From Saprospiraceae bacterium (lineage in GTDB: Bacteria; Bacteroidota; Bacteroidia; Chitinophagales; Saprospiraceae): a stretch of DNA of 64,000 nucleotides. The notes below the pieces were generated by a model, which was not told the DNA's origin, did not search any database, and worked only from the letters and a program-made list of their open reading frames with translations. Position numbers and translations under genes: made by a program. The stretch covers positions 81,717-145,716 of the forward strand of contig JANQQI010000023.1 of NCBI GenBank assembly GCA_028285085.1, written 5' to 3'. Shown here in pieces: positions 234 through 55,759 of this stretch (the first letter of the stretch is position 1; each line of letters opens with the position of its first letter).

Positions 234-344
234 TAATTCAGTAGTCAAGATGCGGTGATTGGCTCTTGAAAAAGATGATGATAGACAGTCTTTACGGTGA
301 TTTCTATCAACTTTGCTTACAAGCTGAGGCAAATAGCTGAGTGA

Positions 345-1400
345 CTAACTCGGGACTAAAGCCAGATGCTCTTCGTCGAGGACCGTAATCCGGCCATTGG
401 AATCCACGTCAATTAAGTTTTCGGATTTGAAATCTGTGAGCATTCGCGAAATGGACTCTTTGGTGGTGCCTACGATGCTGGCGAGATCTTCGCGTAGGAT
501 ATCAATCTTACAATCACCGGCGGCTTGGTATTGCCGGTTTAATTTGATTAACGCATCGGCGACTCGCTTGCGGATGGAATTGTAAGCCAGGCTAATCAAC
601 TGCTCTTCTTTTTCGGCAATATCACTCGTCAGCATTTTGATGAAGCGCGCCATGAAATCTCGGTTATTATTTAACAGCTCGAGGAATTCTTCCTTGGGAA
701 TGAAGCTAATCTCTGAGTCTTCGATGGCGGCGGCGGATTCTTCGTAGGGCCGATCCTTAAGCACTGCCTGAATACCCACAAAGTCGCGTGCTTGGTGAAT
801 ACCCGTGATAAAGGACTTGCCGTAGGTATTGGTGCGGAATGTTTTGACCTTACCATTATTGATGTAATAAAGGCGCTTAGGTTTTTCACCTTCACTGAAA
901 ACTAAATCCTTTTTTCGATAATAGTGATGTGATTTGGATCTGGCCAATTTTTCCAACTCCTCTTGTCCTTTTCGCTCGTCGGTGAGCGTCTTGGCGTACA
1001 TGAGATCAGCATCCCCGGTTTTGTCGAGCCGTTCGGCCTTCTTCAGCCGGGTTTCTACTACCTCTAGCAATTCATTGTGATCAAAAGGTTTGACCAGATA
1101 ATCATCTGCGCCGAGATTCATGCCGGTGCGAAAATCACTTTTTTCAGCTTTGGCGGTCAGGAAAATGAAAGGAATATTATTCGTTTGTGGCTTTTGGCTG
1201 AGAATCCGTAAGGTGCCGAATCCATCTAAACGGGGCATCATAATATCGCAAATAATGAGATCGGGAAGCTCGGCCATTGCTTTTTCGATGCCCTCGATAC
1301 CGTCTTGAGCGAAAATCACCTCATAGCCGGTCAGCTGGAGCAACTCCACGATATTATCACGAACATCGGAATTATCTTCAATGACTAATATTTTCTTCAT
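345..1400 (-). CDS. Response regulator: receiver domain fused to CRP/FNR-type cNMP-binding and HTH domains
   Basis: MKKILVIEDNSDVRDNIVELL...DLIICDIMMPRLDGFG...KPFDHNELLE, then FSEGEKPKRLYYINNGKVKTFR and Crp-HTH LREDLASIVGTTKESISRMLTDFK. ORF trimmed to the MKKIL start. Confidence 0.92.
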   Translation of the reverse strand: MKKILVIEDNSDVRDNIVELLQLTGYEVIFAQDGIEGIEKAMAELPDLIICDIMMPRLDGFGTLRILSQKPQTNNIPFIFLTAKAEKSDFRTGMNLGADDYLVKPFDHNELLEVVETRLKKAERLDKTGDADLMYAKTLTDERKGQEELEKLARSKSHHYYRKKDLVFSEGEKPKRLYYINNGKVKTFRTNTYGKSFITGIHQARDFVGIQAVLKDRPYEESAAAIEDSEISFIPKEEFLELLNNNRDFMARFIKMLTSDIAEKEEQLISLAYNSIRKRVADALIKLNRQYQAAGDCKIDILREDLASIVGTTKESISRMLTDFKSENLIDVDSNGRITVLDEEHLALVPS

Positions 1401-2682
1401 GATATTGGTTTTTTGGAATTTGGACCGTAAATAATGTGCCTTTGGCAATTTCACTGTGAAAAGTGATTTCACCCCTGAGTAATTCAACGTATCGCTTGGC
1501 AAGATTTAATCCTAACCCCGTGCCTTTGATATTGGTGACATTGCTGCCTCGGAAAAAGCGCGTGAATAAATGTGATTGTTCGGCGGTAGGAATGCCTATG
1601 CCTTCATCTTTTATTTTGATAATAAGGTGTTGGCCAGATAGCTCGCTTCGACAGTAAACGGTTGAGTTTTCCGGTGAATATTTAATGGCATTTGATAACA
1701 GATTGACCAGAATTAACTCTAGTAAATTCTGGTCCGAGTAGATCTTCTCAGGCATCTCGGGAGCAGCTTGAAATTCGATCTGCTGTCCGGGCTTTAACTG
1801 ATCACTGATTTGCTCGATGACTTTGCGGCAACAATCGCGCAAGTAGAATAAAGAAAAATTGGGTTGAATTTCATCGTGCTCCAAACTGCCGAGGGCGTTG
1901 AAATCATTCAGAATGCTCGTCAGATCGTTAACGGAGTGTCGGATGCGATGGAGGTGTTTGACTGCCTTTTCCGCTAGATTTTTATTTTGGTACATCTCAA
2001 CCAAGGCTGCCGAAGACAATATAGTACTCAAAGGCGTGCGGAATTCGTGCGAGGTCATCGTGATGAACTGCGATTTGAGTTCGTTGAGTTCTTTTTCTTT
2101 CTCCAGAGCGACCCGGATTTCTCTTTCCGTCGCGCGCAGCAAATCCTCCACTTTTTTGCGCTCTTTGACCTCGGATTCCAGCTTTTTGTTAGTCTGCATG
2201 AGCTTTTCCAATGCTGCGTTGATCTCGTTGGTCCGCTGTTCTACGCGTTCTTCCAACTCAGCGTTGAGCTGTTTGATCTGTGCTTCGGCTTTTTTCTGCT
2301 CGCTCAAATCGTGAATAATACCGGTGAAAACACGCTGCCCATTCAGCTGAATTTCACTGACACTCAGACGCAGGGCGAAGGTCGTTCCGTCTTTTCTTCG
2401 CCCCTCGGTTTCGCGGCCAATGCCAATGATCTTTTTTTCACCAGTTTCGTAGTAATTTTTCATATAGCCATCGTGCCGCGACCGATGGGGTGTGGCCATT
2501 AATATGCTAATGTTTTGACCAATGAGTTCTTCTGAAGTGTACTGAAACAATGCCGTAATTGCCGGATTCACAAGCCGGATAACACCGCCTTCGTCAATGG
2601 CAATAATGCCATCAATAGCTGTTTGGAATATGGCTTGTAGTAACACCAATGGATTGACACGTTCAGATTTTAAGAAATCCAT
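1378..2682 (-). CDS. PAS-domain sensor histidine kinase
   Basis: PAS (IFQTAIDGIIAIDEGGVIRLVNPA), H-box SHEFRTPLSTILSS, N-box NLLSNAIKYSPE, G-box GTGLGLNLAKRYVELLRG. Its 3' end overlaps the regulator start by 23 nt. Confidence 0.95.
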   Translation of the reverse strand: MDFLKSERVNPLVLLQAIFQTAIDGIIAIDEGGVIRLVNPAITALFQYTSEELIGQNISILMATPHRSRHDGYMKNYYETGEKKIIGIGRETEGRRKDGTTFALRLSVSEIQLNGQRVFTGIIHDLSEQKKAEAQIKQLNAELEERVEQRTNEINAALEKLMQTNKKLESEVKERKKVEDLLRATEREIRVALEKEKELNELKSQFITMTSHEFRTPLSTILSSAALVEMYQNKNLAEKAVKHLHRIRHSVNDLTSILNDFNALGSLEHDEIQPNFSLFYLRDCCRKVIEQISDQLKPGQQIEFQAAPEMPEKIYSDQNLLELILVNLLSNAIKYSPENSTVYCRSELSGQHLIIKIKDEGIGIPTAEQSHLFTRFFRGSNVTNIKGTGLGLNLAKRYVELLRGEITFHSEIAKGTLFTVQIPKNQYHEENISH

Positions 2683-2908
2683 TTAAACCGGGTTGAAAGG
2701 TGTATTTCCTGAAATAAGGATATTAAATAATTAAAGGCGGTCTATTACAATCACTATAACTTTCAAATCACCTCTTTTAGACCGTTATACAAAAAATGGA
2801 AGTGGCTTAGAATAAATTGAGCTCCGATTTATTAAAAACCAAAGCGTGCTTCTAAGCCAGTAGAACCATAATGAGGTTAAAGAAAGTGGATTGTGGAATG
2901 AGAAAGAA

Positions 2909-2942
2909 TGATAAATGTCATCTTTTGGGATGATAAATGCTC
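2909..2942. promoter_or_regulatory. Candidate paired CRP/FNR-like operator upstream of CBS gene
   Basis: TGATAAATGTCA (2909-2920) and TGATAAATGCTC (2931-2942), 22 bp apart; centres about -86 and -64 from the CBS ATG. Confidence 0.5.
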
Positions 2943-3000
2943 GTCCAGTAAGATTTTAGTTGGATTATCTTGGTGCTATTCATTCGCAAAACATAATAAA

Positions 3001-3432
3001 ATGGATTTACAGCAACCTATTTCATCCTTGATGACCACCGAATTGAAAGTCTTGGAACCTTCTGATAAGCTATTGGCTGCTAAGGAGTTATTTGATACTT
3101 ACTCCATTCATCATATTCCAGTCATACAAGGAACCACTCTAGTCGGTATCCTAAGTAAAGTCGATTATTTATACTATCTCAAGCCCATCTCCCCGGAGAG
3201 CAAAGAACAATATATAAATGATATAAAATTGAAAAATTATTCTATCGGCGAAGTCATGTCGAAACGTATTATTTCGGCTGCACCTACGGATACCCTCAAA
3301 ACGGCGTTAGAAATATTTAGCGAAAACCTCTTCCATGCCATTCCTGTCGTGGACAATGGTCGCTTAGTAGGGATCATTACCACCCACGATATCATATTTC
3401 GTTTATTGCACCCGGCCAGGACAATGTCTTGA
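3001..3432 (+). CDS. CBS domain-containing protein (two CBS motifs)
   Basis: MDLQQPISSLMTTELKVLEPSDKLLAAKELFDTYSIHHIPVIQGTTLVGILSK...VMSKRIISAAPTDTLKTALEIFSENLFHAIPVVDNGRLVGIITTHDI. Start trimmed from 2908. Confidence 0.92.
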   Translation: MDLQQPISSLMTTELKVLEPSDKLLAAKELFDTYSIHHIPVIQGTTLVGILSKVDYLYYLKPISPESKEQYINDIKLKNYSIGEVMSKRIISAAPTDTLKTALEIFSENLFHAIPVVDNGRLVGIITTHDIIFRLLHPARTMS

Positions 3433-3568: not shown

Positions 3569-3940
3569 TCACGCACACTTGTCCCCCATAATGCGCCCAC
3601 GATTATTCTGTTCTTCCAGCGTCCAGATATCGGTAGCCCAGGTTTGGAGCCATTTGCCGTAGGATTTACGATATACCTGTACGTGTAAACCAAATGCCCT
3701 AGCGAAGTAGAGCTCAAGGTCGCCTACCTTCTGATCGCTATTTAGAGGGATGTAACTAATACCGGTTATCGGCTGGATTTGGCCGATCGTCAACTCTGGG
3801 TCTAGCCGAGTAGCGTCCGCCGAAATTTGTCCGAATGGCTGTTCGGATTGAAAAAATGCCAGCTGAAGGAATGGATACCTTTGATTGAATTCAGTTTGGA
3901 GATCTTTTAATTTGCGGTCGTTTGAAATTTTCATAAGCAT
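3569..3940 (-). CDS. Uncharacterised ~123-aa protein, paralog of 54032..54403
   Basis: ORF with shared C-terminal pattern GLHVQVYRKSYGKWLQTWATDIWTLEEQNNRGR versus GLNVQVFRRSGSIWLQTTSTDSWTLTEQNEHGK. Confidence 0.85.
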   Translation of the reverse strand: MLMKISNDRKLKDLQTEFNQRYPFLQLAFFQSEQPFGQISADATRLDPELTIGQIQPITGISYIPLNSDQKVGDLELYFARAFGLHVQVYRKSYGKWLQTWATDIWTLEEQNNRGRIMGDKCA

Positions 3941-4102: not shown

Positions 4103-4136
4103 TGATTCCTGTCAATGAACTGTTTGATCTTTATCA
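4103..4136. promoter_or_regulatory. Candidate paired CRP/FNR-like operator
   Basis: TGATTCCTGTCA (4103-4114) and TGATCTTTATCA (4125-4136), 22 bp apart, upstream of the 3569..3940 gene. Confidence 0.45.
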
Positions 4137-4973
4137 TGTCTTCATGACGAGCATTGGTATCTCTGTTTTTCTCGCCATTTTTTGCGTATAGCTGGGGCGG
4201 AAAAGTCGATCGATGAAGGAGCGCTCGGGACGAAACATCACCAGCAGATCAATCTCAAAGTTTGTCATGAATTCGTTTAGCTTATTTTCAAGCTTGTTAC
4301 TGGTCAGGTGATGAAATTGCGTCTGCAGCCCCAAGGGATGGGATTCAAAATAGGCTCTGAGTTCTTTAAATAGAATGCCTTCATCTGCCTCCTCCTCCTT
4401 TTTACTGATATGTACGATATGAAAAACGGCGCTCAAAGGCGCCAGTAATTGAGAGGCCTTCCAAATTTCAAACGGGTCTGAGGCTTGGATGTCCGTCGCA
4501 TAAGCGATGGTGTGCAAGGGCTGGATATCGGCCTGTTCGGGAATGATGAGCACCGGACAATCCACTCTGGCAATGACACCGCTGCTGACGGTGCCCAGGA
4601 TTTTTTCAATCGTACTGTGCGTACCTTGCGTACCCATAATCACCAAATCAGGCGAATGCGCTTCCACCCATTTCTGGATTATGGCCACCGGACCACCCAC
4701 TTCGACCGAATGTGTGATTTTGGGCGGCGACTTTAGCTGATTACTGACTTGACTCAGGCCATAAGCCACATAATTATCCATGACTTCCCGGGCGGCTTCG
4801 GCCTTCGAACTGATCACATCAGCGGCTAAGGCTGGAATATCGAGGGTATCGGCAATGGGATAAACAACGTGTAGAACGTGCAGCTCCGCTTGTGTTTTAT
4901 CCGCAAAAATCAAGGCGTGTCGAAAGGCATTCTGGGCCGTTTCTGAAAAATCGGTAGGGACTAATATTTTCAT
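4134..4973 (-). CDS. Universal stress protein, tandem UspA domains
   Basis: MKILVPTDFSETAQNAFRHALIFADKTQAELHVLHVV...DLVIMGTQGTHSTIEKILGTVSSGVIARVDCPVLIIPE, plus a second degenerate UspA half. Confidence 0.93.
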   Translation of the reverse strand: MKILVPTDFSETAQNAFRHALIFADKTQAELHVLHVVYPIADTLDIPALAADVISSKAEAAREVMDNYVAYGLSQVSNQLKSPPKITHSVEVGGPVAIIQKWVEAHSPDLVIMGTQGTHSTIEKILGTVSSGVIARVDCPVLIIPEQADIQPLHTIAYATDIQASDPFEIWKASQLLAPLSAVFHIVHISKKEEEADEGILFKELRAYFESHPLGLQTQFHHLTSNKLENKLNEFMTNFEIDLLVMFRPERSFIDRLFRPSYTQKMARKTEIPMLVMKT

Positions 4974-5058: not shown

Positions 5059-5092
5059 TGACCTAAATCATTTTGCTCGGTGATTAAATTCA
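5059..5092. promoter_or_regulatory. Candidate paired CRP/FNR-like operator
   Basis: TGACCTAAATCA (5059-5070) and TGATTAAATTCA (5081-5092), 22 bp apart, in the UspA/lipoprotein divergent spacer. Confidence 0.4.
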
Positions 5093-5841: not shown

Positions 5842-6360
5842 ATGTCGAAGCCCAAATTGATCCTCGTTGTCGGCTTGCCAGGAACCGGGAAAACCACCTT
5901 CGCAAGCGTACTGTCAGAGTCCCTGTCGATGGTGCATTTAAATAGCGATAAAATTCGAGCTGCCATGGGGCAGCGGGGGCAATATAATGCTGAAGCCAAA
6001 GCGCAGATTTACCATGAGCTAGTTAACCAATGTGAGGTTCATTTGCAAGAAGGTGAAAGTGTCATTGTTGATGCTACCTTTTATAAGGACACCTTAAGGC
6101 AGCCCTATCAAAAGATGGCGGAACAATACAGTTTACCAATTTATTGGATAGAATTACGGGCGGAAGAAACGATTATTCGAGCCAGGGTAGAGCAGAAAAG
6201 AAAATATAGTGAGGCTGATTTTTTAGTGTATAAAAAGATAAAGAAAGAATTTGAGCCATTGAATTATCTTCGCTTAAGCTTGCGCTCGGATTTATTGAGC
6301 TTAGAAGAAATGGTAGAAAAAGCTAAGGAGTATACTTCGATTTTGTTAAATGCCCAATGA
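5842..6360 (+). CDS. P-loop ATP-binding kinase-like protein (COG0645-like)
   Basis: Walker A GLPGTGKTTFA; VIVDATFYKDTLRQPYQKMAEQYSLPIYWIELRA. Confidence 0.82.
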   Translation: MSKPKLILVVGLPGTGKTTFASVLSESLSMVHLNSDKIRAAMGQRGQYNAEAKAQIYHELVNQCEVHLQEGESVIVDATFYKDTLRQPYQKMAEQYSLPIYWIELRAEETIIRARVEQKRKYSEADFLVYKKIKKEFEPLNYLRLSLRSDLLSLEEMVEKAKEYTSILLNAQ

Positions 6361-42947: not shown

Positions 42948-44399
42948 ATGAAAAACAACAGTATAGGTGATTTTTTTAGGAAAAAGCTGAACGAAGATTC
43001 AATCTCAGAGGATTGGAGTAACCTTGATACTGAAGTCGATGAGCAGGTGCTAAGACGCATTTTATATTCGGGCAATTCTAAAAGTAATAAGTGGAAAAAT
43101 AGTATTGTTCAAATAGGGGTTGGTGTTTTGTTTCTATTGATATGTGGATATGCTTGGCATTTGAATGAAGAATTGAAAATTGTGAAAAAAGAACTGGTGG
43201 ATGTGACTTCTCCTTCTGAAATAAAACAAAGTCAAATGCTGAATCAATTTGGGGAAAGCCATAACATTTTTGCTGATCAAAAAAATGAAAAGAAAGATCC
43301 TCTTTTTGAAACCAAGAACTTCCAACAATTTAAAAGGCAATTAATTCATGATAAAATCGAATTAGAGCAGCAATTAATGTCATTCCAATTAGCAGCTAAG
43401 CAAATCGAAGCTGAGGCCTCACATAGCAAGGATAGTCTCAACGAAATAATTGACCGATTAAAATATCGATTAGCAAGAGATCAGTATTTGGATGCAAAAA
43501 TGAGAGATGATGATTTATTAAGTAATCGGCCTTTAAAGCCTTTGGAATTACCGTTGTTAGACGATTTTCTAAAAATACGACATCTCGACAGAGCCACTTT
43601 GAATCAGATAGATCCAACATCTACAACAAAATATTCTATAGCTTACGAACACATTTTACAATCATGGAATGTGCCATTTACCAGGTCGTTCGATACACAT
43701 CGATTGGTCTCTGGTGGTAGCCAAAATGATTTTGTCTTGTCTCATAGTAACGGATTGATTTTTTCTTTTTCTCCCGAAAAGCATTGGTGGATAAAATCGG
43801 GGATTAGATTTTTGAACTTAGACATAAAAAATACACAGCATTTGGCTTTAGCTTATTCTTCTCGTAACGAAGCATTGGAACCCAATGGAGACATTAATTC
43901 TACTATTTCTACAAAACTTAATACTCCTTTTTTTACTGCAAAAAATTCGCTTGAAATCCAATTTCAACAAACTCGCTTACCTGAAGAAGAGAGTTTAATG
44001 GAATATCGATCAACAGATCATTTATCCATCTCAATGTGGCAAATGCCATTTGGCCTAGCTCGCTATATTCCCGTAAGTAAATCATTGATTTTTATTCATG
44101 GTGGGTTACAGTTAAACGCGATTCAGATAAATGATTACACCTTTCAAACCACCGTTTTGGATGACGAACAAAATACACTTCAAATTTTAAAAGCGAATAC
44201 GGATGTTCAACAACTAAATAATCGAATCTTTTTGGGTGCTTTTGGTGAGTTCGGGATTCAAAGGTCGTTTTATCAGTCGTGGTATTTAAAAACAGCAATA
44301 AGTTATAGTTACCATTTCTTAAAAAATAATGATCATCAAATAGCTGCCCAAGCAAAGACAAGTAGCGCTATAATGCTTGGTTTGGGGTATCAGTTTTAA
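42948..44399 (+). CDS. Single-TM membrane protein, possible anti-sigma factor with outer-membrane-like C-terminus
   Basis: TM NSIVQIGVGVLFLLICGYAWHL; 12 nt after the sigma gene; C-terminus ends in aromatic YQF. Confidence 0.7.
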   Translation: MKNNSIGDFFRKKLNEDSISEDWSNLDTEVDEQVLRRILYSGNSKSNKWKNSIVQIGVGVLFLLICGYAWHLNEELKIVKKELVDVTSPSEIKQSQMLNQFGESHNIFADQKNEKKDPLFETKNFQQFKRQLIHDKIELEQQLMSFQLAAKQIEAEASHSKDSLNEIIDRLKYRLARDQYLDAKMRDDDLLSNRPLKPLELPLLDDFLKIRHLDRATLNQIDPTSTTKYSIAYEHILQSWNVPFTRSFDTHRLVSGGSQNDFVLSHSNGLIFSFSPEKHWWIKSGIRFLNLDIKNTQHLALAYSSRNEALEPNGDINSTISTKLNTPFFTAKNSLEIQFQQTRLPEEESLMEYRSTDHLSISMWQMPFGLARYIPVSKSLIFIHGGLQLNAIQINDYTFQTTVLDDEQNTLQILKANTDVQQLNNRIFLGAFGEFGIQRSFYQSWYLKTAISYSYHFLKNNDHQIAAQAKTSSAIMLGLGYQF

Positions 44400-52381: not shown

Positions 52382-52792
52382 TCATACACCGAAAAAGGAC
52401 TTGGTTTTAGCAATCTTCTGCGGATCAGTCATCTTATCCGCTGCTTCGACTTGAATTGGAATGGTTCTACCCCAAGGTTGCTCAGCAATTACATTTTGTA
52501 ACTTATCTTTCATCTCCGCCGGCCCAAAAATATACAAGCGGTTTACCGGCTTAACCAACTCAATAATGCTGTCAAAATAAGCCTGCTGCTGGTGCTTGCG
52601 TCGCTCGGCATACTTTTTTTCCGAGACGGTATCCATTGGACCCCAAGGCGTTTTAGCCCGGGCGCCACCCACCGCGCGATAATCTTCAATATCGGAATCG
52701 ACAGAGTGGGTTTGGATTGTATTATTTTCCAGGAGGATGACAAAGGCTGATTTCGTATCTAGCCAAATACCACAAAACTTTAGGGAACTCAT
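52382..52792 (-). CDS. Uncharacterised protein, possible eRF1/host-attachment-like fold
   Basis: MSSLKFCGIWLDTKSAFVILLENN...YFDSIIELVKPVNRLYIFGPAEMKDKLQNVIAEQPWG; start trimmed from 52957. Confidence 0.72.
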   Translation of the reverse strand: MSSLKFCGIWLDTKSAFVILLENNTIQTHSVDSDIEDYRAVGGARAKTPWGPMDTVSEKKYAERRKHQQQAYFDSIIELVKPVNRLYIFGPAEMKDKLQNVIAEQPWGRTIPIQVEAADKMTDPQKIAKTKSFFGV

Positions 52793-52841
52793 AATTGCTC
52801 TTTTTTTCTTCAAAACTATCCGTTCCGGGACGGATCGTGGG

Positions 52842-52923
52842 TGATAAGGATCATTTTTCCAACTGATAATTATCATCATCCCCGGCTTTGGATTGAAACA
52901 TCTTTGAAGTGTGATCAAAATCA
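52842..52923. promoter_or_regulatory. Three CRP/FNR-like boxes in divergent spacer
   Basis: TGATAAGGATCA (52842-52853), TGATAATTATCA (52864-52875), TGATCAAAATCA (52912-52923); all match TGAT-N4-ATCA exactly. Confidence 0.6.
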
Positions 52924-52949: not shown

Positions 52950-53876
52950 ATGTCCACTGATAAGCTCGAATCAACTACCCTTCAGCAAACTGAACCAATG
53001 ACTATTAATCAAGCACTCGTGGGCTTGGCCCTCGACAGGACAGATCGTGGATTAGTACGCTATTGGAATTTTTTTACGCAACAAGTCCCCACGAGTGCCA
53101 GTTATTTTATGCATGTTTTGCCGGCTGTCGATGATATACGGCAAATGGTGAAAGAAGAGTTTGGTGCGTTGATTCTCAATGAAACTTTGACTAAACGGAT
53201 GGAAGAAGAAGTGGAGGAGGGGTTTATGCAACGTGATCAAATGTACGTTGAATACGATGTGCGGGAGGGGAATGCCCTACAAGAAATGCTCAATAGCGCG
53301 GAGTCTCTAAATATTGATTTATTAGTGGTTGGCCAGAGTAAAGGACGTATTAAGCCGAATATTTTGGCGCGTAATTTAGTACGTCAGACCAATGCTAATG
53401 CTTTAGTCATTCCTACCGATGCCAAAGCTGATATTTCTAATATTTTGGTGCCCATTGATTTTTCACCGAATGCAATGCGCTCTTTGCGATCCGCAATTAG
53501 CTTGCAAGCCCAATTGGAAGCACCAGCTAAGATTACCTGTCTTTATGTTTATACCGTCCCGGATTTAAATCATTTTAAATGGGATGGCCCTTGGATTCAA
53601 TTAAAAAGTACAGTAACTAATAATATCCAAGATGGCTTTAATGCTTTTGTTAGTACACATTTTCCTGAGCAAAAAGATCAGTTAGAAATAGCCATGGTCG
53701 AAAGAACAGACGGAAGTGTTGCAAAAAGTATTATTAACTATGCCGCTGAAAATAATTGTGACTTTATGTGCCTCGGTGCAAAAGGACATTCAAAAGTGCA
53801 TTTACTTTTACTCGGAAGTGTCACTGAAGGTGTTTTAAGTATGAATAATGACCTTCCGGTTTTAATTGTGAAGTAA
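52950..53876 (+). CDS. Universal stress protein, tandem UspA domains
   Basis: LDLLVVGQSKGRIKPNILARNLVRQTNANALVIP-type and ISNILVPIDFSPNAMRSLRSAISL; GAKGHSKVHLLLLGSVTEGVLSMNNDLPVLIVK. Start trimmed from 52911. Confidence 0.9.
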   Translation: MSTDKLESTTLQQTEPMTINQALVGLALDRTDRGLVRYWNFFTQQVPTSASYFMHVLPAVDDIRQMVKEEFGALILNETLTKRMEEEVEEGFMQRDQMYVEYDVREGNALQEMLNSAESLNIDLLVVGQSKGRIKPNILARNLVRQTNANALVIPTDAKADISNILVPIDFSPNAMRSLRSAISLQAQLEAPAKITCLYVYTVPDLNHFKWDGPWIQLKSTVTNNIQDGFNAFVSTHFPEQKDQLEIAMVERTDGSVAKSIINYAAENNCDFMCLGAKGHSKVHLLLLGSVTEGVLSMNNDLPVLIVK

Positions 53877-55170: not shown

Positions 55171-55204
55171 TGATAAATATCATTTTTCGATTTGATCTAA
55201 CTCA
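55171..55204. promoter_or_regulatory. Candidate paired CRP/FNR-like operator upstream of the YtfI/YtfJ-like genes
   Basis: TGATAAATATCA (55171-55182) and TGATCTAACTCA (55193-55204), 22 bp apart; centres about -86 and -64 from the 55262 ATG. Confidence 0.5.
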
Positions 55205-55261: not shown

Positions 55262-55759
55262 ATGATTTTAGTAATTGTACTTAGTCTATTTGTTGGCTTT
55301 TTAATTTGGCTCTTTTTGACCCCTTTAGTGCTAGTTGTAGATACGACTAAGAATCAATATTTGATAACTTGGAAAGGGGTTGCTTCTGCTCGATTAATGG
55401 GTTTTGATGGGAGATGGAAAGTAAGTGTTAAAGTGTTTTTCTGGAAAAGGAATTTTTATTTCCCATTTAAAAAATCGGATAAATTAGAAAAGAAGAATAA
55501 AAAAAGGAAGAAGCAAAAAAAAGTGAATTTTAAAAGGTGGAGGCATAAAGGATGGCAAATTTTAAAGTCATTTGAAGTAAAGCGGTTTTATTTAAATCTG
55601 GATACAGATGATTTTGTAAAAAATAGCCAATTGTTCCCTCTGTTTTATTTTTTGAGTGCAAACAATCGACAATTAAAAATAAATTATGAAGGCCGTGCGG
55701 AGTTAGTGCTGATTATTGAAAATCGACTCTGGCGAATGCTCAAAGCCTTCCTTTTTTAA
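55262..55759 (+). CDS. DUF2953/YtfI-like membrane protein (tentative)
   Basis: N-terminal TM ILVIVLSLFVGFLIWLFLTPLVLVVDT; basic middle; directly upstream of a GerW/YtfJ-family gene. Confidence 0.6.
   Translation: MILVIVLSLFVGFLIWLFLTPLVLVVDTTKNQYLITWKGVASARLMGFDGRWKVSVKVFFWKRNFYFPFKKSDKLEKKNKKRKKQKKVNFKRWRHKGWQILKSFEVKRFYLNLDTDDFVKNSQLFPLFYFLSANNRQLKINYEGRAELVLIIENRLWRMLKAFLF

Follow-up and report, generated by a model that had tools for sequence, protein, structure and literature searches.

The window analysed here, a stretch of 64,000 nucleotides from a Saprospiraceae genome of 7.47 Mb (contig 118:81717-145716), contains a divergent spacer of 157 bp between the ATG of a minus-strand gene (52792) and the start of a UspA gene (52950). 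The spacer and the genes that flank it comprise the following features:

52382..52792, minus strand: 136-aa gene without Pfam match, predicted target
52811..52818, minus strand: predicted −10 element of the minus-strand gene, TAGTTTTG, 23 bp off box 1
52842..52853, no strand assigned: box 1, TGATAAGGATCA, predicted class II site for the minus-strand promoter and upstream site for the plus-strand promoter; kept in orthologues
52864..52875, no strand assigned: box 2, TGATAATTATCA, predicted class II site for UspA (plus) and upstream site for the minus-strand promoter; kept in orthologues
52899..52906, plus strand: predicted −10 element of UspA, CATCTTTG, 23 bp off box 2
52912..52923, no strand assigned: box 3, TGATCAAAATCA, overlying the predicted UspA start site; not conserved
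52950..53876, plus strand: UspA gene, 308 aa, Pfam Usp, predicted target

All three exact TGAT-N4-ATCA boxes that a sequence-only reading of the window had placed in this spacer are indeed present, while its label "eRF1-like" for the minus-strand gene has no Pfam support. The step from box 1 to box 2 is 22 bp, and the register fits both directions, each −10 element lying 23 bp from its own box; the UspA element has a single mismatch against TAnnTTTG.

The window holds 10 exact TGATN4ATCA boxes against 1.84 ± 1.28 in dinucleotide shuffles, none of which (0 of 100) reaches 10. Whole-genome counts, made by pattern searches together with 1.18 Mb of contigs, give 407 such boxes and 86 with the reversed pattern; the chance rate of one exact match per 65 kb used in the sequence-only reading was thus too low, the genome having about one per 18 kb. 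Single boxes are common, and it is the pairing that carries the signal. Genome-wide there are 12 exact TGAYN4RTCA pairs with a gap of 0–30 bp, compared with 1 in the reversed control, and eight of the 12 have steps of 22 (five times), 23 (twice) or 21 (once). In the 1.18 Mb of contigs, at steps of 12–60, the exact pairs are eight at 21–23 plus one at 48. We also used the receiver-CRP protein described below as a query to collect 80 loci (1.35 Mb, 48–53% identity), nearly all from Bacteroidota and spanning Pontibacter, Rufibacter, Runella, Chitinophagales and others; these contain 43 exact pairs at step 22, five at 23 and two at 21, with at most two at any other step, and a mirrored box yields one pair. 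The proposed 22-bp pairs are therefore enriched over controls both genome-wide and class-wide.

The UspA protein was searched in 40 relatives; in the seven closest genomes (L178-L184) the best matches have 33–50% identity. Upstream of these best matches the pair is present in all seven (six exact, one with one mismatch), with a step of 22 or, once, 23, and TAnnTTTG follows 23 bp on, perfect in five. Pair and −10 element are missing at a second UspA copy that one of the seven genomes carries (L203) and at the majority of distant homologues. Conservation upstream of orthologous UspA genes, on which the sequence-only reading had staked its proposal, thus holds for boxes 1 and 2, which are genuine control sites; box 3 occurs in none of the seven closest UspA promoters. 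Having no 22-bp partner either, box 3 was dropped as a third operator and is probably a chance occurrence.

Four other spacers had been said to share the 22-bp pairing, and they do so to different degrees: 4103/4125 matches exactly, one mismatch is found at 5059/5081 and at 55171/55193, and 2909/2931 is weak, with three mismatches in its second box. The pair 276/298 had been missed. These pairs are as follows:

276..309, minus strand: pair at step 22 with one mismatch and, on the same strand, a −10-like CATCTTG; before a 573-aa gene beyond the window
2909..2942, plus strand: weak pair at step 22, TATCTTG 23 bp on; before a CBS-domain gene (start 3001)
4103..4136, minus strand: exact box pair, step 22; TACCTTG at gap 23; before the 123-aa gene 3569-3940 (minus)
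5059..5092, minus strand: box pair, step 22, one mismatch; TACCTTG near gap 23; before the Usp gene 4134-4973 (minus)
55171..55204, plus strand: box pair, step 22, one mismatch; before gene 55262-55759 (plus)

At 55171..55204 a clear −10 element at gap 23 was not found. The predicted targets 52382-52792 (minus), 3569-3940 (minus) and 55262-55759 (plus) are small genes with no significant Pfam match, and are possible new members of the stress set.

The element TAnnTTTG recurs exactly 23 bp past the outer box, often on both sides of a pair. When gaps of 9–39 bp were searched across the genome, 8 of 29 matches had gap 23; around the 41 distinct exact pairs of the relatives, the element (at most one mismatch) stands at offset 23 in 38 of 82 flanks, other offsets usually having 0–2 elements. 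In Flavobacterium psychrophilum TAnnTTTG is a sigma-A element at −12 to −5 (PMC9723704), so a gap of 23 centres the near box at −41.5 and the far box at −63.5. With the F. psychrophilum −10 spacing the pair has the site near −41.5 by which class II CRP/FNR-dependent promoters are recognized, and by this predicted register it would have a class II activation layout.

Two adjacent genes at the left end of the window are candidates for the regulator and its input:

345..1400, minus strand: receiver-CRP fusion (Rec-CRP), 351 aa, candidate activator; HTH GTTKESISR
1378..2682, minus strand: PAS histidine kinase with a FixL-like heme-PAS signature (RSRHDGY, IIGIGR)

Rec-CRP belongs to the CRP/FNR superfamily (PF00027, 3.5e-20; PF13545, 1.1e-15). 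Across 81 sequences its receiver is intact, with D52 and K104 in 81/81 and T82 in 75 (S in 6), and the recognition-helix residues E315 and R319, equivalent to FNR E209 and R213, are likewise present in 81/81. The N-terminal 4Fe-4S Cys cluster is absent from these sequences, in which only C51, within the receiver, is conserved. Judged by the residues of the effector region, cAMP control is unlikely. In the relatives the TGAY-N4-RTCA core holds, and the outer T of TTGAT is found in 16% of distal boxes; the position of Ser212 of E. coli FNR is Ile in most Rec-CRPs and Ser in the window protein, and an outer T or A is, by eye, somewhat commoner at the window's own boxes. Should this pattern hold, specificity would have changed in step with a single recognition residue.

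The kinase gene overlaps that of Rec-CRP, which comes after it, and a kinase-size gene lies directly upstream of Rec-CRP in 76 of the 80 loci. The best solved relatives of its PAS domain are FixL structures (3.6e-31), and in alignment with these the window kinase has both the proximal His (RSRHDGY) and the distal Arg (IIGIGR). The signature is present in six kinases, namely that of the window, its paralogue and four others among the Rec-CRP loci; being so rare among linked kinases, heme sensing was rejected as a general feature, with the proviso that in some of them a receiver-like stretch replaces the PAS site and the FixL alignment is meaningless there. In L104, L105, L107 and L108 (Pontibacter, Adhaeribacter, Rufibacter) such a stretch lies in the gene just upstream of Rec-CRP, suggesting a different input.

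We scanned 117 proteins downstream of a pair plus −10 element in the 80 loci and found PAS histidine kinases (20), Usp (18), P-type ATPases (9), DoxX (9), cbb3 CcoN/CcoO (6), FixS (6), glutamyl-tRNA reductase (HemA, 5) and CcoG/FixG (3), as well as HSP20, a list biased by neighbourhood because the loci were chosen around Rec-CRP genes. Example targets, cbb3 subunits I/II and CcoG, score above the NCBIfam cut-offs. Outside the window, the same genome has a pair with a −10 element before a metal P-type ATPase and CcoNO on contig 5. Others lie ahead of divergent Usp genes and an enoyl-CoA hydratase-like protein (both contig 103), of two more CBS genes (contigs 25 and 133) and of a metallo-beta-lactamase/rhodanese protein (contig 96). 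Contig 73:4003-6965 (L045) repeats the layout at 345-3432 of the window, with a second FixL-like kinase/Rec-CRP operon on one side of a paired operator and a CBS gene on the other. Under O2 limitation, F. psychrophilum is reported to induce cbb3 oxidase and heme genes (PMC9723704). Two single boxes on contig 15, at 42958-43001 and 6301-6343 (both minus) with TAnnTTTG at gaps 24 and 23, adjoin two other CRP-family genes, L035 and L036, hinting at cross-regulation among CRP-family genes.

The composite promoter, counted with at most two mismatches in 297 Bacteroidia genomes, occurs 1567 times compared with 46 in the reversed control. Its mean number per genome is 8.8 in the 145 genomes with a full-length Rec-CRP, 3.7 in the 61 with only a stand-alone FNR-like protein (E < 1e-54), 0.44, with no exact pair, in the 32 with only weaker relatives, and 0.92 in the 59 with neither regulator, these counts having been transcribed by hand from tables and the genomes not being independent. 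Six genomes without either regulator have at least three sites, and two or more of these are incomplete assemblies. Within families, exact pairs go with Rec-CRP at a permutation p of 0.00045 (26 mixed families). Sole ownership of the operator by Rec-CRP was rejected, since FNR-only genomes keep the sites; there the operator appears to be used by a stand-alone FNR of the Fe-S type. In ten genomes inspected, the stand-alone FNRs mostly have C-x2-C-x8-C-type cysteines and a GTATE[ST]xIR helix, and the Rec-CRP helix has the pattern of these Fe-S-type proteins. In a tree, the Rec-CRP modules form one group (98/97), nested together with the Fe-S-type FNRs in a wider group (96/84). Of the seven other CRP proteins of the window's genome, six fall outside this wider group and one, L035, joins at its base on a long branch.

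A CRP/FNR-family regulon with 22-bp paired operators, as the sequence-only reading had proposed, is thus supported by enrichment and by conservation at the UspA promoters. Its further suggestion that the 345..1400 protein is the regulator also gains support, although the operator is not exclusive to the fusion: we infer that Rec-CRP binds because its genes and the sites co-occur, the sites cluster near its gene and, in relatives, precede its own kinase operon, and its helix is shared with the FNRs.

We consider it rather likely (probability roughly 0.7) that the window belongs to an FNR-type activator regulon with phosphorelay input and a tandem operator. This reading builds on the boxes, their spacing, the −10 register, orthologue conservation, target kinds, regulator co-occurrence and intact residues, all of which were computed. 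Each 12-bp TGAY-N4-RTCA palindrome would bind one dimer of an FNR-type activator, and two dimers, 22 bp or about two turns apart, would share one face of the DNA, the box nearer the gene at −41.5 beside the TAnnTTTG −10 element and the farther box at −63.5. The operator in the UspA spacer would work both ways, so that each box is the class II site for one gene and the helper for the other. The likely activator here is the receiver-CRP protein 345-1400, with its paralogue on contig 73, and the FixL-like kinase 1378-2682 would phosphorylate it when oxygen or another heme ligand changes; the FixL-like PAS domain and the cbb3 and heme-synthesis targets point to O2 as the signal. In the window's genome the regulon would take in Usp and CBS proteins as well as a high-affinity cbb3 oxidase with a metal P-type ATPase; HSP20, CcoG, CcoS, HemA and the kinase-regulator operon itself would be further targets in relatives.

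It is possible but improbable that another CRP/FNR protein, most plausibly L035 of contig 15 (helix LRVETVIR), binds the operator and that Rec-CRP has other targets. The E and R of the recognition helix are also present in L035, which lies at the base of the tree group with Rec-CRP and the FNRs, and stand-alone FNRs of other genomes appear to read this operator; against this, the L035 branch is very long (2.62) and the protein has no Fe-S cysteines, the Rec-CRP helices closely match those of the GTATE-type FNRs, site co-occurrence follows Rec-CRP, and the exact pairs gather around Rec-CRP genes and, in relatives, stand before the kinase-Rec-CRP operon. CRP/FNR proteins are able to repress, and the sites might do so here, the pair serving for example to form a loop or to block RNA polymerase. 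Start sites are indeed overlapped by box 3 and a few others, but the fixed −41.5/−63.5 register in many genomes is the canonical activator layout, and some of the target functions are reportedly induced when O2 is limiting (PMC9723704), which makes repression quite unlikely. Chance, by which AT-rich spacers yield TGAT/ATCA boxes and the striking ones are selected, could account for the many single boxes and for the unsupported box 3 but is hardly credible for boxes 1 and 2, given how sharply the steps peak at 22 and the gaps at 23, with almost nothing in the adjacent bins, and given the shuffles, the reversed controls and the conserved orthologous promoters.

Beyond the phosphorelay-fed activator regulon favoured above, we see about even odds that there is one Bacteroidia oxygen regulon with a fixed −63.5/−41.5 operator, in which the sensor is swapped between an Fe-S FNR and a receiver-FNR with a PAS kinase. 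The receiver would then have taken the place of an FNR's cluster module, Fe-S FNRs and receiver-FNRs would recognize one operator with helices of a common type, and the PAS kinase driving the receiver-FNR would be a heme-PAS protein in some lineages.

The predicted system resembles FNR class II promoters in its TGA-N6-TCA palindrome, its E and R recognition residues and its site at −41.5. It differs in that the input to Rec-CRP, which is set apart from FNR proper by having no Fe-S cysteines, is a receiver domain rather than a 4Fe-4S cluster, and in that the outer T of TTGAT is not conserved in relatives, the second site is fixed at −63.5 and the −10 element is that of Bacteroidota. The window's FixL-like heme-PAS kinase and the targets, which include the cbb3 oxidase and its assembly genes (fixNO, fixG, fixI, fixS) and heme synthesis, recall the rhizobial FixL-FixJ-FixK cascade. 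FixJ has a LuxR-type output, whereas here receiver and CRP/FNR-type output are in one protein, so that the cascade would be compressed into a kinase plus a receiver-FNR fusion; unlike in FixL systems, the kinase heme signature is missing in most relatives. The DosR (DevR) regulon of Mycobacterium tuberculosis contains Usp, HSP20 and CBS proteins, and our system would share these targets with it, as well as two-component control of numerous Usp genes. The output domain of DosR is of the NarL/LuxR type and that of Rec-CRP of the CRP/FNR type, and the predicted targets of Rec-CRP also include cbb3 oxidase genes. A clustering of Usp and related genes with a link to low oxygen is described for the lxa (low-oxygen-activated) locus of Burkholderia cenocepacia (PMC9733578, PMC6127331); lxa is proteobacterial, and the likeness is at the level of gene content.

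CRP/FNR proteins of Flavobacteriales and Saprospiraceae bins have been treated as MalR-like (PMC8510549), and the literature we searched holds no description of the paired-operator system or of the control of Bacteroidota cbb3 oxidase and Usp/CBS clusters. The present results offer a probable regulator with its likely kinase, and an exact operator and promoter register for which any Bacteroidota genome can be scanned, in a system that parallels FixL-FixK and DosR with a different protein architecture. With them, a change of input at one operator, between Fe-S cluster and phosphorelay, can be put to a direct test.

Two single genomes deserve mention. In G068 (contig 25:6547-8326) a stand-alone FNR-like gene lies directly after Rec-CRP, 29 bp away on the same strand, and G223 stands out for its 86 composite promoters and its 18 exact pairs, with many on one contig.
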